Of a stretch of DNA of 64,000 nucleotides, positions 6,456 through 20,423 are shown piece by piece (position 1 is the stretch's first letter; each line of letters starts with the position of its first letter). Made by a program: the position numbers and the translations under genes. The DNA comes from Candidatus Fonsibacter ubiquis (GTDB lineage: Bacteria > Pseudomonadota > Alphaproteobacteria > Pelagibacterales > Pelagibacteraceae): assembly GCF_002688585.1 (NCBI RefSeq), contig NZ_CP024034.1:921501-985500 (forward strand), written 5' to 3'. Below the pieces are notes generated by a model, which saw only the letters and a list, made by a program, of their open reading frames with translations, was not told where the DNA came from and searched no databases.

Positions 6456-7343
6456 ATGTTTTTACACAACAAAAATAAAGAGTTTTTAGGCATAACATAC
6501 ATGCTTTTATGTATGCTTTTTTTTTCAATTAACGATGCTTTTATAAAATACATCCTATTAATTTATAAAGACATTACTTTGCTTGGACAGGTAATCTTTA
6601 TACGAGGGCTTTGTTCTACATTTATTTTAGGCTTATATCTTTATTCTAAAAAAAAACTAACTTTGGATATAATTAAATCAAAACCTCTACATGCCAGAGG
6701 AGCTATAGAGTCAATTGCAGCGATATTCTTTTTTTTAGGGCTTATGTATTTACCATTTGGAGAACTCTATTCTTTGTTAAATTTAGCTCCGATATTAATA
6801 ACTGCATCAGGTGCCTTTATATTAGGAGAAAAAGTAGGTTGGCGAAGGTGGACTGCAGTAATTTTAGGTTTTGTTGGAGTTATGATTGTAATTAAACCTC
6901 ACGACTTACAATTTGGATATGCCTTTATTTATCCCCTGATCTCGGCAATTTTTATAGCCCAAAGAGATACTATAACCAGAAAATATTTAGAAAAATTCGA
7001 TAGTCTTCAAGTTGTTTTTATAACCTCGTTGTCTGTTACAATTTTTTTTAGCTTTGGAATGTTATTAAACTTCAAACCAATAAATCTCGAAATTTTTATT
7101 TTTATTTTTCTCTCAGCAATATTTGTGACTGCTGGATATTATTTTTCAGTACTAACTATTAAAGTTGCGAATATTTCAACAACTTCTCCATTTCGCTACA
7201 CAATAATTATTTTTGGAATTATTCTTGGATATTTTATTTTTAATGAAACACCTTCAATTAATATGATTTTTGGATCCATATTAATTATAAGTAGTGGTAT
7301 ATTTATTATTTTTAGACAAAAAAAAATTGGACTAATTAAATAA
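6456..7343 (+). CDS. EamA/DMT family transporter (first of three)
   Basis: 295 aa integral membrane protein with about ten hydrophobic helices in two EamA repeats (residues about 10-145 and 155-290). Typical family signals are the NDAFIKY start of helix 1, GEKVGWRRWTAVILGFVGVM at the end of repeat 1, and SPFRYTIIIFGIILGYFIFNE in repeat 2. Members export metabolites or amino acids by proton antiport; the substrate cannot be read from sequence. The stop overlaps the start of the next small gene by one base, so they are translationally coupled. Confidence 0.85.
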   Translation: MFLHNKNKEFLGITYMLLCMLFFSINDAFIKYILLIYKDITLLGQVIFIRGLCSTFILGLYLYSKKKLTLDIIKSKPLHARGAIESIAAIFFFLGLMYLPFGELYSLLNLAPILITASGAFILGEKVGWRRWTAVILGFVGVMIVIKPHDLQFGYAFIYPLISAIFIAQRDTITRKYLEKFDSLQVVFITSLSVTIFFSFGMLLNFKPINLEIFIFIFLSAIFVTAGYYFSVLTIKVANISTTSPFRYTIIIFGIILGYFIFNETPSINMIFGSILIISSGIFIIFRQKKIGLIK

Positions 7344-7600
7344 TGCAAAATTTAAAAACTCTAGTTGATTTACTAAAATCAAAAGCCAAAAAGACCTCTG
7401 AAGATGAAGATTTAATCGAATTTGTGAAGGGAAAATATTTTTTTGGAGTTGTTAAAGATCAGGGAGATTTTGAAGGAATTACAATTAGTCGAAAATTTGA
7501 AGCAAAATATTCAAAAAGAACAGGTTTTAAGATAATAGATACAATTGATAGTTATTCAGAAAAAAATTATTCAAGAATAATGCGATATTTAGAAGATTAA
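7343..7600 (+). CDS. Hypothetical protein (85 aa)
   Basis: Not recognised. A soluble 85-residue product with charged ends, a central beta-rich stretch (KYFFGVVKDQGDFEGITISR, about residues 30-49) and a C-terminal helix ending in MRYLED. There is no signal peptide, membrane segment or cysteine. It starts on the last base of the preceding EamA gene (ATG overlapping TAA), strong contextual evidence that it is translated and perhaps functionally tied to that exporter. Confidence 0.6.
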   Translation: MQNLKTLVDLLKSKAKKTSEDEDLIEFVKGKYFFGVVKDQGDFEGITISRKFEAKYSKRTGFKIIDTIDSYSEKNYSRIMRYLED

Positions 7601-14561: not shown

Positions 14562-15482
14562 TTATTTTTTAGAAACTGCAGTTTTTTTTGAAAGATAAAT
14601 TAACAAAATAATTGCAACTGAAAAAATAATTGTAAGGAAATCCAAATTTTCTCCAAGAATATAAATTGAAAATGCAAAAGTAAAAAAAGGCATCAGTAAC
14701 TGAATCTGACTGACACGAACAGCTCCTCCTAAATCCAGCCCCTTATACCAGGCAAAAAATCCTATCCACTGCGAAAATATTGCAACATATAAAAAACCAA
14801 TCCATGAAATAATATTAATTTCAGTTTTTGGAAAATAATAAATTGCAAAACCGAAATGAAATGGCATGGCAAGAACAAGCGCCCATGAAATAACCTCTGG
14901 TGCAGCCATAACTTTAGTAAGTTTAGCTCCAAAATTATAACCCACAGCTGCAGCAATTACAGCAATACAAAAAAGTATATCATAATGGGATATTTCAAAT
15001 GTAGTATTTGAATTTTCGTTATGAAGCAGGATGTAAATAACAACAATAATACTTCCAAAAAAAGCACATAACCAAAAACTTTTAGATGCCTTTTGTTTAA
15101 AATAAAATGATGCAAAAATCGCTGTTGCAAGAGGTAAGAAAGCTAAGATAACACCTGCGTGAATTGAGGTAGAATAAATTAAACCAAAAGATAGTGTCAA
15201 AGGAAACGTAACGGACAGGCATAAAGCAATTACAGAAAAATTTAGTAGATCTTTTTTCTGAGGGATCTTTTTTTTTAAAGTAAGTAAATATAAGAGTGAT
15301 AAAAAACCAGCAAGCGTTGATCTTCCAAAGGTAATAAATTCTGCAGAAAGTTGGCTATTACTTGGTCCTAATGCAATTTTCGTTGCAACTGGAGTAATTG
15401 AAAATATTAATATTCCAACGAATCCATAAATAAATCCCCTACTTTCATTACTTAAATTGAGGAAAAAATTATTAAAAGGCAT
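14562..15482 (-). CDS. EamA/DMT family transporter (second of three)
   Basis: 306 aa with about ten hydrophobic helices in two EamA repeats. Family signals are IFSITPVATKIALGPSNSQL near residues 22-41 and FLYVAIFSQWIGFFAWYKGL in the second half, then LDLGGAVRVSQIQLLMPFF. The substrate is unknown; relatives export amino acids and related metabolites. It is convergent with the hydratase gene, with one base between the stop codons. Confidence 0.85.
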   Translation of the reverse strand: MPFNNFFLNLSNESRGFIYGFVGILIFSITPVATKIALGPSNSQLSAEFITFGRSTLAGFLSLLYLLTLKKKIPQKKDLLNFSVIALCLSVTFPLTLSFGLIYSTSIHAGVILAFLPLATAIFASFYFKQKASKSFWLCAFFGSIIVVIYILLHNENSNTTFEISHYDILFCIAVIAAAVGYNFGAKLTKVMAAPEVISWALVLAMPFHFGFAIYYFPKTEINIISWIGFLYVAIFSQWIGFFAWYKGLDLGGAVRVSQIQLLMPFFTFAFSIYILGENLDFLTIIFSVAIILLIYLSKKTAVSKK

Positions 15483-15671
15483 TAATCAGTAAGTTGTATC
15501 TTAAAAAAAAAAAAAAGTGACAAAAAAGCAACAATAAAACTCAATAAAATCAGTATTTTTAAACAACTAATAATAACGTACTTCATTTATATGTATATAT
15601 AAGGTGTAAGTTTCTCAATATTAATTATAAAGGTTCTTAAGTTTAATTAAACAATTAATAAGGTTATTATA

Positions 15672-16367
15672 ATGAATAAAACAAAAACTTTGTTGGCAAC
15701 AACAATACTAGCTACTTCATTTTCCACAGCTGCATATTCTCAAAATATTAATGTGGGTATTTCTGGTGCATTCGGAAAAATGGATGCTGAAGGAACAGAA
15801 ACTAACGTTACTGCAAAAGCAAAAAAATCAGGAGATGCAAATTTCCCATTTGCTTCAATATTTGCAGAATACAATTTAGTAGTTGATAAATCTTTGACTA
15901 TGGTACTTGGCTTGGATTATGTCCCGCTTAGCACTGAGATTGAAGATACATCAAGAGCTGATACAAATTTAGGCGGTGGTGGAGCTGGTAGCGGAAGTAA
16001 CCCTACAACAACTTCTACAAAAAAAGCAAAGTTAGAATTAGAAAATCACGCGACACTATATTTACAACCAACTTATAGTTTAGGTGGTGGTCTTTCTGTT
16101 TTTGGAAAAGTTGGATACTCTCATGCAGATTTGCAAGTTACATCGAATAACGCTGCAACAGGATCCACTCTAAATAAGAAAGATGATCTAGAAGGTTACC
16201 TTGTTGGTGTTGGTGTTCAAAAGAATATTGATAAAAGTACTTTTGTTAGATTTGAAGCAAACTACACTGACTACGATACTGTGACTTATACAAATAGTAA
16301 TGGTACAAGATTTACTGCAGATCCAAAGTTATATGCTGCAAAAATTTCGGTTGGAAAGAGTTTCTAA
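15672..16367 (+). CDS. Outer-membrane beta-barrel protein (OmpA/porin-like)
   Basis: 231 aa with a signal peptide of about 23 residues (ending TAAYS). The mature part alternates short amphipathic strands and polar loops: NINVGISGAFGKMD, FASIFAEYNLVVDKSL, ATLYLQPTYSLGGGLSVFGK, VGVGVQKNIDKSTFVRFEAN. It ends LYAAKISVGKSF with the C-terminal Phe typical of outer-membrane barrels. There is a Gly/Ser/Thr-rich loop (GGGGAGSGSNPTTTS, about residues 99-113). The size suggests an 8-stranded barrel. Its role, pore or structural, is unknown. It is flanked by a 189-base upstream gap and a terminator, so it is monocistronic. Confidence 0.8.
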   Translation: MNKTKTLLATTILATSFSTAAYSQNINVGISGAFGKMDAEGTETNVTAKAKKSGDANFPFASIFAEYNLVVDKSLTMVLGLDYVPLSTEIEDTSRADTNLGGGGAGSGSNPTTTSTKKAKLELENHATLYLQPTYSLGGGLSVFGKVGYSHADLQVTSNNAATGSTLNKKDDLEGYLVGVGVQKNIDKSTFVRFEANYTDYDTVTYTNSNGTRFTADPKLYAAKISVGKSF

Positions 16368-16383
16368 TTAAAAAAATTTTATA

Positions 16384-16418
16384 AAAGCCTCAGATAACTT
16401 TTTATCTGGGGCTTTTTT
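16384..16418 (+). terminator. Bidirectional intrinsic terminator
   Basis: A 13-bp stem with one G-T pair (arms 16384-16396 and 16403-16415, 6-base loop) is flanked by A-rich sequence on the left and a T run on the right. It ends the outer-membrane protein gene and, read on the other strand, sits just past the stop of the convergent lysine-rich gene, so it can serve both. Confidence 0.85.
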
Positions 16419-17667
16419 ATTTCTTAACTAATCTTTCCTTTTCAAATAATAAAGCTAAACGATCAATAATATAATCAGAAGCCTCAAAAACATTTTTTGG
16501 ATTAAATACTTTTGTCTCAACAGTATCGGTTCTATCTTCTAATGTAATATCATTTATTAAACGCTCTGATGCATTCTCTCCTTTGATATAAAGCAAAAAT
16601 AAATAGTCATTATCAGGTGTGTCTTGATTTTTTATAAAACACTCACCACTTTCAGCAATATTGTCAATAAAAGCGAGTGGTGGTCTTTTTTTAGTTAAGT
16701 ATCTTTTGTTAACTTGAAATACAATTGATTTCATATTTCTAGAATATTTTTCTAATCGTTCAACAACTTGTTGTTTAATTTCATTCTCTCGCTTTTGTGC
16801 ATCTAATATAGCTCTGGCCTCTTCTCTCGTTCTTCTTTGTATTTCGAGCTCTGCTAACTTTGCTTCTCTTCTTTTAAGCTTAATCTCTTTTATTTTATCT
16901 CTAAAAACTTTTAGTCGTTCTTCAATACCTCTTAATTGATTTTTTAATTGATATATTTTTTCTTTTTCTTGTCGTTTATGATCCTTAAGTTGTAAATCTA
17001 ATCGTTTTTCTAATGCTTTTTGCTCAATAATAATTCTTTTTTCTAAAGCCTTCTGTTCTCTTTCTAGATGACGAAGCTCTAGTTGCTTTGCTCTGAGTAA
17101 TTCCTTATTAAATTGATGTTTCTTTTTTTTTAGCTCAATAATTTCACGTAAATTTTTTTTTTTTAATAATTCAAGCTCTCGCTTTCTCAAGATAGCCTGT
17201 TGCTTGGCAATCTTAAGTTGTTTTTTTTGTCTATTTTCTTTCCAAGAAACAATCTTATTTTGAAAATAAGATTTTAATCCAAAAAAATTATTTAATTGAT
17301 CTTTAATATAAAGGCTAAATTTATTTAGGAGATTATTTTTATATTTTACTATTTTTTTATTTTTTAATCTTTTTTTAGTAATTTTTATTTTTTTTAAAGA
17401 TTTTCTTTTTTTTCTTGTTTTTTTAGTTTTACGTTTTTTAATAAAAATCTTTTTTTTTATTTTATTCTTATTTATTTTTTTAATTTTTATTATTTTTTTT
17501 TTATAAAATTTTTTCTTGACGATAAATTTTTTAATTATTTTTTTTTTTAAAGGTTTATTTTTTCTTGATATTTTTTTTCTAAATATTTTTTTTTTAAATA
17601 ACTTTTTTTTTGAAATTATTTTATTTTTTTTAGATGACGCTTTTTTATTATTTTTCTTTTTTTTCAT
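16417..17667 (-). CDS. Lysine-rich coiled-coil protein of unknown function
   Basis: 416 aa, not recognised as a whole. Residues 1 to about 115 are an extreme low-complexity basic domain built almost only of Lys, Ile, Asn, Arg and Phe. Residues about 140-315 form a long charged heptad-rich coiled coil that includes a duplicated EQKALEKR motif (about residues 207-225). Residues about 316-416 look globular, with FIDNIAESGECFIKNQ and DNDYLFLLYIKGENASERL. The basic N-terminus could bind DNA, RNA or polyphosphate and the C-terminal domain could be a partner-binding module; both are guesses. The first ATG was kept, but the true start could lie further in. There is no signal peptide. Confidence 0.7.
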   Translation of the reverse strand: MKKKKNNKKASSKKNKIISKKKLFKKKIFRKKISRKNKPLKKKIIKKFIVKKKFYKKKIIKIKKINKNKIKKKIFIKKRKTKKTRKKRKSLKKIKITKKRLKNKKIVKYKNNLLNKFSLYIKDQLNNFFGLKSYFQNKIVSWKENRQKKQLKIAKQQAILRKRELELLKKKNLREIIELKKKKHQFNKELLRAKQLELRHLEREQKALEKRIIIEQKALEKRLDLQLKDHKRQEKEKIYQLKNQLRGIEERLKVFRDKIKEIKLKRREAKLAELEIQRRTREEARAILDAQKRENEIKQQVVERLEKYSRNMKSIVFQVNKRYLTKKRPPLAFIDNIAESGECFIKNQDTPDNDYLFLLYIKGENASERLINDITLEDRTDTVETKVFNPKNVFEASDYIIDRLALLFEKERLVKK

Positions 17668-17748
17668 TACTAATAAGCAAAAATATTATGTCAAATAAGA
17701 ATAATTATAACTAACATTAAAATGAAAAAATAATAGATAATTAATTAT

Positions 17749-18621
17749 CTACAAAAAATTTACGTCTTTCAGATCTTGTGTTAAATTTAATCTTTGCTGA
17801 TCACTGAGAGCAACCAAAGGTGGTCTAAGGCTAGACCAATTAATATGTTCTTTAATTTTCGTAGCTTTTAAAGCTGCAATTACAGGATATTTTTCAAAAA
17901 CATCTCTGACAGCTTTTATTTTTTTGTTAATTACTTGTCCTTCTGGTTTATCAAAAGAATTTATTAATTTTGACGCTTCGATATTTACATTGGTAGTAGC
18001 GCTAATGCAGCCAGAGCAGCCAATATGAAGTCCATCGTAAAGAAATTTTTCACTTCCAGGGTAAACAATAAAATTTTTTATTTCTTTATACTTTTTTGTA
18101 TTTTCGAAATTTCCTGAGCTATCTTTTATTCCCATAATAATATCTGAAAACTCATTTTTAAGTCTGTTAACAAGATCTATGGAAATAGTTACACCACTTA
18201 CTTGGGGAATATTATAAAGAAATATACGAAGATTTTTTGATTTTACTCCACTGATAATCTCTTTGTAATATTGATAAACGCCTTCATCTGAAACATTTTT
18301 ATAGTAAAATGGTGGAAGTAGTAATACTGAGTATATTCCATTTTCTACAGCAACCTTAGTAAGTAAACTGGCATCTACAAAAGAAGTATTTCCAGTTCCA
18401 ATAATTACCTTTTCTTTGGGCAAATCACTGTTTGCTAAGACTTTAATTAAATCTATCTTCTCAGATACAGAAATAGAGTTTGCTTCTCCTGTTGTTCCTA
18501 ATGGCGCTAAACTAATATTATTATTTAGTAAAAATTCACAATGCGAGATGAATAATTTAGTATCGATACTGAAATCCTTTTTAAAAGGGGTCAAGACTGC
18601 TGAATAAACTGCTTTTTCCAT
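17749..18621 (-). CDS. Dihydrodipicolinate synthase/N-acetylneuraminate lyase family protein
   Basis: 290 aa TIM-barrel class I aldolase. The carboxylate-binding GTTGEANSIS is near residues 42-51, the catalytic Tyr is in FLYNIPQVSGVTIS (about 132-145), and the Schiff-base Lys is in MGIKDSSGNF (about 161-170). These residues are shared by DapA and by several sugar-acid lyases. Divergence from typical DapA (for example LLPPFYYKNVSDEGVYQYY) suggests a paralogue working on another 2-oxo acid rather than the lysine-pathway enzyme. No partner gene indicates the substrate. Confidence 0.8.
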   Translation of the reverse strand: MEKAVYSAVLTPFKKDFSIDTKLFISHCEFLLNNNISLAPLGTTGEANSISVSEKIDLIKVLANSDLPKEKVIIGTGNTSFVDASLLTKVAVENGIYSVLLLPPFYYKNVSDEGVYQYYKEIISGVKSKNLRIFLYNIPQVSGVTISIDLVNRLKNEFSDIIMGIKDSSGNFENTKKYKEIKNFIVYPGSEKFLYDGLHIGCSGCISATTNVNIEASKLINSFDKPEGQVINKKIKAVRDVFEKYPVIAALKATKIKEHINWSSLRPPLVALSDQQRLNLTQDLKDVNFL

Positions 18622-18718
18622 AATATAATTTTTTAATTAGAACGGTTGTAGATATTATCTATAAAAAAACAATAATTTAAAATAAATATCAACAAGTAAT
18701 TTATCTTTTAAAAATTTA

Positions 18719-19648
18719 ATGAATAAAGGCTTAATAGTTCAAACCAGACCAGGCATTGGAGATTTGTGTATGTTTCTTCCATACATACAACAAATTAAAG
18801 AACATAATAAAGATTGTGAGTTTACTTTGATCACTAAAAAAAGAACCGCAGCAAAACAAATATTAAAATATGAACAGTCCATTAAACATATTATTTTTTT
18901 GGAGGATGAAATTTTAGAAATAACCAAATCAAAAATTAATAATTTTTTTAAACTACTCAGTTTTATAAAAAAAAATAATTTTTCTAAAATTTATATTATG
19001 CACTTTAGTCTTTTTTGGTTTTTATTAGCTAAAATATCAAGAATAAAAAATATTTATAAATATGGAATAATAAAAAAGAATGTAGATATTTATTTAAATG
19101 CTCTAGAGCAAAATAAACGATGGTTAAACAATAATAATCTATCTAGTCAAACGAAAATAGCTTACCCACATAATAATAACAAAAATAATAATCAAATTAT
19201 TATTGGGATAGGATCTTCGGGTCCAACCAAAAAATGGCCAACAGAAAACTATATTGAGCTAATAAAAAGAATTAATAATAAAAACATAAAATTTTTTTTA
19301 GCTGGAGGAAATAATGAGATTGAAAATCAAATTGCTAATAAAATTATTTGCGAGATAAAAGAAAATTCAGTTGTATCTTTATGTTCTTTAACTATTGAGG
19401 ACATTATTCCGGTTATTAATTCCAGTAAGTTATATGTCGGGAATGATACTGGATTTATGCATTTAAGTGCCGGTTTGGATATACCAGCGATTGGTCTTTT
19501 TGGAGACACGCCATTGTCTTATGCAAATTATAATAAAAATATTTTTCCAATTATTCCAAAAAATTTTAAAACTGTGGGGCACAACTCTTTTGCCATGAAA
19601 CAAATAACAGTGGATCAAGTCCTAAAAGAAGTTAAAAAATTTATCTAA
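18719..19648 (+). CDS. Glycosyltransferase family 9 (heptosyltransferase-like)
   Basis: 309 aa GT-B fold enzyme of the LPS heptosyltransferase family. The N-terminal RPGIGDLCMFLPYIQQIKEH is near residues 10-29, and the donor-binding half contains GIGSSGPTKKWPTENYIELI (about 161-180). The family motif SKLYVGNDTGFMHLSAGLDI (about 237-256) is followed by PAIGLFG. The likely role is transfer of a sugar in LPS core or surface glycan synthesis at the cytoplasmic face. Its end overlaps the convergent AsmA-like gene by 8 bases. Confidence 0.85.
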   Translation: MNKGLIVQTRPGIGDLCMFLPYIQQIKEHNKDCEFTLITKKRTAAKQILKYEQSIKHIIFLEDEILEITKSKINNFFKLLSFIKKNNFSKIYIMHFSLFWFLLAKISRIKNIYKYGIIKKNVDIYLNALEQNKRWLNNNNLSSQTKIAYPHNNNKNNNQIIIGIGSSGPTKKWPTENYIELIKRINNKNIKFFLAGGNNEIENQIANKIICEIKENSVVSLCSLTIEDIIPVINSSKLYVGNDTGFMHLSAGLDIPAIGLFGDTPLSYANYNKNIFPIIPKNFKTVGHNSFAMKQITVDQVLKEVKKFI

Positions 19649-20423
19649 AAGTTCTTTCTAACTTTTTTAAAGACTCTGAAGAGATTTTATTTCTTAAGTT
19701 TTTTAGTTTATCTTTTATCTTATTTTTCAAATCACCCTGTATAATTTCATTGTTAATATTTAACAAAACATTTGAAAAAATCATCTGAAGTACTTCTTTG
19801 AACTTTGTTGCCTGCTCAACAGTACCCACATTATTAAATGACATTTTGCTGAGATTAATATCTTTTTTAATATCTAAAAATTCAGAGGAAGCATTTATTG
19901 TAGAATTATTGATAGTTAGCTGATTAACTAAAAAGTCTTTATTTTTTTTCTGAGATTGTTTGCTATTTTCTTGTTCTTTACTGCTATCTGATGTTTTAAC
20001 TGACGAAGAGACTGTATTTTTAGTAGCAGGTTTAAATGAACTTACATTATCCTTAACCTCTCTATTACTAATTAACACCTCATAATACAAAGTAGCGCCT
20101 TCAATATTTATATTCTTAATAACGATAGTATCTTTAAATAAACTAGTGAATAAAAAATCTGCATTAATATTTTTAATTTGAATAATATTCTTATTCTTAA
20201 AACCCTCTAAATTTTTTATTTCAATATTACTAATTTTAACAGACGAACCCAATATACTGGTATCTATCTGCCCAACAGACACTTGTTGACCTAAAGTTTG
20301 ACTTCCTTGATTGATAATTAAATTTTTTACTATTTTGTTAACTCTGTAACTTAAAAAATCAAAGATTAAAAATATTATTCCAAAAAAAAGTAGAGAAAAA
20401 ATAATTATTTTTTTTTTATTCAT
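19641..20423 (-). CDS. AsmA-like membrane-anchored protein (short)
   Basis: 260 aa with one N-terminal membrane helix (residues about 5-25). An AsmA/DUF748-like beta stretch follows: QTLGQQVSVGQIDTSILGSS (about residues 42-61), KISNIEIKNLEGF and FKDTIVIKNINIEGATLYYE. A Ser/Lys/Gln-rich linker (about 130-160) and a helical C-terminus with KNKIKDKLKNLRNKISSESL complete it. AsmA-like proteins bridge lipids between membranes, but this one is far shorter than canonical AsmA, so function is only inferred. Its ATG overlaps the stop of a 37-codon upstream ORF (ATGA). Confidence 0.65.
   Translation of the reverse strand: MNKKKIIIFSLLFFGIIFLIFDFLSYRVNKIVKNLIINQGSQTLGQQVSVGQIDTSILGSSVKISNIEIKNLEGFKNKNIIQIKNINADFLFTSLFKDTIVIKNINIEGATLYYEVLISNREVKDNVSSFKPATKNTVSSSVKTSDSSKEQENSKQSQKKNKDFLVNQLTINNSTINASSEFLDIKKDINLSKMSFNNVGTVEQATKFKEVLQMIFSNVLLNINNEIIQGDLKNKIKDKLKNLRNKISSESLKKLERTFR

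Follow-up and report, generated by a model that had tools for sequence, protein, structure and literature searches.

The described proteins that come closest in layout to the one analyzed here act on storage granules. AlgP of Pseudomonas aeruginosa is a histone H1-like protein that spaces polyphosphate granules, and PhaF is a phasin with an H1-like tail that works on PHA granules. The lysine-rich tails of both proteins are reported to bind DNA and the proteins to space granules, the basic tail of PhaF-type phasins serving as one end of the tether (PMC9239181). We analyzed a 64,000-nucleotide stretch (the window) from the single 1,160,202-bp contig of 'Ca. Fonsibacter ubiquis', the name given to the freshwater SAR11 bacterium LSUCC0530 (PMC6018831). 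Like AlgP, a protein encoded in this window combines a lysine-rich, low-complexity tail with a helical domain, and its tail has the lysine-rich, nearly acid-free composition of AlgP and H1-like proteins (58 Lys and no Asp or Glu in residues 1 to 122), as do the tails of 20 homologues. Unlike in AlgP, the tail is N terminal, there is an additional alpha/beta head, and the home genome lacks PPK1 and PPK2. KPAA repeats of the AlgP/PhaF kind are missing from the window protein; one relative (L054) does share tandem basic repeats with AlgP, but these differ in sequence. The tail of the window protein would, like that of PhaF, bind DNA, but the gene is kept in relatives without detected PhaC and no phasin was found among the Pfam matches of 20 members. 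Crescentin, a coiled-coil scaffold, offers a further comparison: the window protein is likewise a long helical protein of a curved alphaproteobacterium, but its heptads cover only a short stretch, its basic tail is very long, and it has a globular head.

As judged from sequence, the protein has three parts, namely a basic tail, a rod, and a head, with a charge bias, conservation, and selection. The open reading frame (ORF) named in the original prediction is real, and its features are listed in Table 1.

Table 1. Positions, in window numbering, of the gene, the parts of its product, and an adjoining hairpin
Feature	Position	Strand	Basis
Whole ORF, 416 aa plus stop	16417..17667	-	Homologues in relatives; ATG start
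N-terminal basic segment (residues 1-122), free of Asp/Glu, net charge +64	17302..17667	-	Low-confidence prediction
Distal rod, residues 131-225, predicted to be helical but heptad-free; EQKALEKR twice	16993..17277	-	AlphaFold2 and heptad test
Proximal rod, residues 226-300, putative heptad coiled coil	16768..16992	-	z 4.7
C-terminal head, residues 301-416, predicted end of long helix, five strands, and C-terminal helix; most conserved part	16420..16767	-	
Terminator-like hairpin between the ORF and the convergent beta-barrel gene	16383..16416	+	Consensus scan only: 1 found, 0.3 expected

The 5' neighbor of the ORF is a dihydrodipicolinate-synthase-family gene on the same strand, separated from it by 81 nt, and the convergent neighbor is an outer membrane beta-barrel gene (PF13505; 15672-16367, + strand). 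In the gene-order table, the same-genus loci L044, L045, and L046 have no counterpart of the beta-barrel gene at this place. Among 20 loci, the gene just upstream is a CMAS-type (cyclopropane-synthase-like) methyltransferase in 9, a dihydrodipicolinate-synthase type in 5 (including the window), a third gene cluster in 4, and something else in 2, and we rejected a functional link to this gene because its identity varies. Where the methyltransferase is present (L049, L050, L051, L053, L056, L057, L060, L061, and L062), it lies 24 to 33 nt upstream of the homologue, a gap that suggests co-transcription in those 9 loci; the best methyltransferase match in the home genome lies elsewhere. Glycosyltransferase-9, DnaJ-domain, and prolyl-oligopeptidase genes are close by in most of the 20 loci. 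Genomic position is conserved, but the immediate partner gene is not, and the neighbors vary by clade and indicate no pathway. A 260-aa ORF at 19641-20423 (- strand), with a below-cutoff match to DUF748 (which we take to be AsmA-like), is conserved near the homologue in several relatives. An Rfam search over positions 15000 to 19000 returned nothing useful.

The first 115 residues had been described as almost exclusively K, I, N, R, and F, and these amino acids indeed make up 82% of that stretch, which contains 56 Lys and no Asp or Glu and has a net charge of +62. The window contains 68 ORFs that are 100 aa or longer, and no other product among them is as basic (K+R of 59% over 80 aa; runner-up, 31%). 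The basic segments of 20 homologues range from 51 to 181 residues in length and from +30 to +87 in net charge, their low acid content being partly a matter of definition since the segments were delimited by low acid density. In gene-start stretches of fixed length from these homologues, we found 3 Asp+Glu residues versus 47.8 expected from dinucleotide shuffles, a comparison in which the homologues are not independent and L044, L056, and L057 (each with fewer than 1 expected) add nothing. Shuffles of the window tail already yield 52 K+R, versus the 62 seen. Base composition accounts for much of the tail lysine but not for the missing acid. The window tail is no closer in identity to the tails of L044, L055, L050, and L062 than to shuffles of them, whereas its identity to that of the same-genus L045 is above every shuffle. 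On these comparisons, conservation of the basic domain is partial: its charge is kept in 20 of 20 homologues, while its sequence and length change fast. The hydrophobic content of the tail start varies from 8% to 29% across homologues, which argues against a conserved amphipathic membrane anchor. In L054, a 105-nt unit encoding a 35-residue basic repeat is present five times at 7139-7599; the copies are at least 98% alike over a 41-nt core and appear to be a recent tandem expansion of the tail.

Next to the tail, AlphaFold2 run on the full protein predicted one continuous helix from residue 131 to 323 (~190 residues), with a pLDDT above 90 for most of residues 170 to 270 and low confidence before residue 140. 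A heptad signal was absent over the whole rod (residues 131 to 305; z = -0.9), and a single uniform coiled coil was rejected on this ground. When the rod was analyzed by part, residues 226 to 300 gave a z of 4.7 and residues 131 to 225 a z of 0.1. The "long coiled coil" of the original prediction is thus borne out as a long predicted helix with heptads at about residues 226 to 300, and fails for residues 131 to 225. The proximal signal exceeded a z of 3.5 in 8 of the 13 homologues on which periodicity was run (out of 20 rows) and was weak or absent in L049, L050, L052, L053, and L061. Both copies of the EQKALEKR unit were found (residues 204 and 215); their 11-residue spacing misfits a 7-residue heptad. 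We also looked for a single charged helix with i+4 salt bridges, for which the signal was weak (z = 1.5).

The head model, built from alignment A1 (which, like A2, combines the window with 19 of 20 retrieved loci), contains a helix (2 to 46), five strands, and a C-terminal helix in an alpha-beta5-alpha arrangement, predicted confidently with a pLDDT of 88 and a pTM of 0.79. L063 was left out of both alignments because its protein contains an X, and L048 lacks the gene start at a contig end. Twelve residues are invariant in 20 rows (L305, E306, R310, S314, Q318, N320, K321, E342, L358, F394, D398, and R412 in window numbering). The last ~110 to 140 residues have no trusted match in Pfam or NCBIfam, in agreement with the earlier description of a C-terminal domain of no recognized family, and a search of PDB sequences found no relative. 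The best PHROGs match (0.0058, to an ssDNA-binding family, in 3 of 20 members) was taken as chance. Foldseek with the head model found nothing below an E value of 0.5 in the PDB and nothing below 0.1 among viral models. In a structural comparison, the best match was CapZ alpha (Z = 8.5; rmsd = 4.1; 101 aligned), followed by plant frataxin (Z = 7.5; rmsd = 4.2 over 96) and Med17 (Z of about 7), Z values that by the tool's own note are common between unrelated folds; the ranking was the same with the full-length model. These folds share with the head a layout of helix, antiparallel sheet, and helix, but their identity to it is just 5 to 6%. We read the resemblance in the models as a generic helix-sheet-helix layout with no convincing structural match.

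In a full-length search of 41 relatives, the gene was found in 16, with none in the sister family (0/16). A search with the last 127 residues found it in 260 of 297 family genomes and in 124 of the 127 of high quality (completeness of 90% or more, contamination of 5% or less), with one match per genome among the matches listed. Across the order, a profile from A1 matched 230 of 297 genomes; all of the matches listed were in the gene's own family, and the sister-family genomes listed had none. The profile matched 5 of 385 genomes in a class sample, all from the same family, and 2 of 398 in a phylum sample; one additional weak match in each (E = 0.008 over 49 positions with an internal stop, and E = 0.0055 over 30 positions, respectively) was taken as chance. 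A search of a collection of named genomes gave 560 confirmed related stretches, of which 80 were kept; titles naming a family or genus read Pelagibacteraceae, Pelagibacter, Pelagibacterales, or Fonsibacter, and the others read "alphaproteobacterium." Of the relatives with names, the nearest are Fonsibacter and SCGC single cells, the latter of which we take to be LD12. A phage search found no relative, and none of 61 pattern matches in viral contigs was confirmed as one. We also looked in the sister family for a diverged version of the gene and rejected this idea, as no ORF is rich in Lys/Arg (maximum, 0.24 over 80 aa) in six stretches from four genomes around methyltransferase or oligopeptidase genes; this is weak evidence since the Pelagibacteraceae neighbor set is not conserved there. 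Collectively, no credible relative appeared outside the family in the sister family, the class and phylum samples, phages, Pfam, NCBIfam, or PDB sequences, and no paper on this protein was found in a literature search judged partly by titles and the starts of abstracts.

Within the genus, the gene is present and unbroken in 7 of 12 drafts; of the 5 without a match, four are 70 to 78% complete and one (G007) is 94% complete. Neither of the two outcomes that would have spoken against the original description was seen, the tail belonging to no recognized family and the gene being intact wherever it was found. Between the window and L045 and L046, dN/dS is 0.06 to 0.07 for the head, 0.15 to 0.17 for the rod, and 0.30 to 0.39 for the basic segment. 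The corresponding ranges over six pairs are 0 to 0.07, 0.07 to 0.17, and 0.27 to 0.39, some of these ratios being rough because synonymous distances above about 1 are saturated. The gene is under purifying selection, the reading frame is kept in all three parts, and constraint increases toward the head. The conservation in 260 of 297 genomes, together with dN/dS, speaks against a chance ORF in A-rich DNA, a reading that we rejected. The original suggestion that the protein is "probably useful" is well supported by its near-universality in the family, its single match per genome, and this selection.

A charge-conserved tail, a short coil that would oligomerize, and a conserved head common to all carriers make a multivalent tether the simplest reading. 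We tentatively propose a family-specific oligomeric tether, in which the tail would attach to nucleic acid (most likely the nucleoid) and the head to a partner. The disordered lysine tail would bind by charge, with no sequence specificity; the proximal coiled coil would bring two or more chains together and thereby multiply the number of tails; the rod of about 190 residues, ~28 nm long if it is one straight helix, would space the head from the nucleic acid; and the conserved alpha/beta head may bind a partner that all members of the family share. Exclusion of acid from the tail beyond base composition, retention of charge in a fast-changing tail, proximal heptads in 8/13 homologues, the strongest constraint on the head, and near-universal presence in the family favor the tether. 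Against it, AT-rich DNA favors Lys, heptads are weak or absent in 5/13 homologues, and the neighbors point to no pathway. The home genome also has three genes of the HU/IHF type, presumably encoding nucleoid proteins, so it is not short of such proteins. Our preference for the nucleoid over RNA is a weak argument, made mainly by analogy with lysine-rich H1-like tails. Conservation of charge only would suit any polyanion, whether DNA or RNA. In an alternative reading, the tail would contact mRNA or rRNA, and the head would bind a protein of the ribosome or of RNA processing. This we consider unlikely, as no RNA-binding family or fold gave a trusted match (only weak, low-ranked lines) and ribosomal genes are absent from the neighbors scanned. 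The most interesting rival to the tether is a crescentin-like cell-shape or cytoskeletal scaffold that would maintain the curved-rod form which SAR11 cells share. It would fit the long predicted helix and near-universal presence in the family, and the far-apart LSUCC0530 and HTCC1062 are both small curved rods (PMC6018831). MreB, present in 20/20 high-quality relatives, also fits but does not discriminate, because the sister family, which is without the gene, has it just as widely. A continuous heptad rod is not what we found (heptads cover about 75 residues only), and crescentin, to our knowledge, has neither an acid-free tail of 122 residues nor a globular head; we consider a scaffold role improbable. 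The nucleoid, RNA, and scaffold roles originally guessed at are each possible.

A tail rich in Lys, Ile, and Phe, as in the window protein, could also belong to a membrane or envelope adaptor that binds acidic lipids, a reading made quite improbable by a hydrophobic share that is unconserved and as low as 8%. The layout shared with AlgP and PhaF raises a granule tether, with the tail on DNA and the other end on polyphosphate or PHA. We took it as a serious candidate because LSUCC0530 makes a polar PHB granule (PMC12113158), but its pha locus has its own phasin (PMC12113158). Neither PPK1 (PF13090) nor PPK2 (PF03976) was found in the home genome (G000), and among 41 relatives PPK1 occurs in 13 and PPK2 in none; polyphosphate synthesis is patchily lost in SAR11. 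Four same-genus drafts (G001, G003, G009, and G010) do have PPK1. PhaC was found in G000; over the 41 relatives it was found in only 10, and it was not found in six carriers of the gene outside the genus (G013, G014, G015, G016, G021, and G024), and a Pfam search of 20 members at an E value of 0.1 found no phasin domain. With PPK1 and PPK2 missing at home and PhaC missing from these carriers, a granule role cannot be the shared one, and we rejected it as such, which also makes the polyphosphate binding of the original prediction unlikely as a shared role. Granule tethering, which may occur in some clades, is overall very improbable.

SAR11 bacteria are hugely abundant in water and have shed most dispensable genes. 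In a broader reading, which we regard as rather doubtful, the tether would be a core architectural protein confined to the SAR11 family (Pelagibacteraceae), with an H1-like tail, a rod, and an undescribed head fold, that adds to the usual nucleoid or cell-shape machinery of these bacteria, the most streamlined of those that live freely, and is perhaps needed by all members. A 416-residue protein kept in 124 of 127 high-quality genomes, for which no credible relative was found in other lineages, is a good candidate to meet a structural requirement particular to this lineage, be it DNA packing, maintenance of shape, or the positioning of components in a very small, streamlined cell. Its distribution and its separable tail, rod, and head make this question testable.
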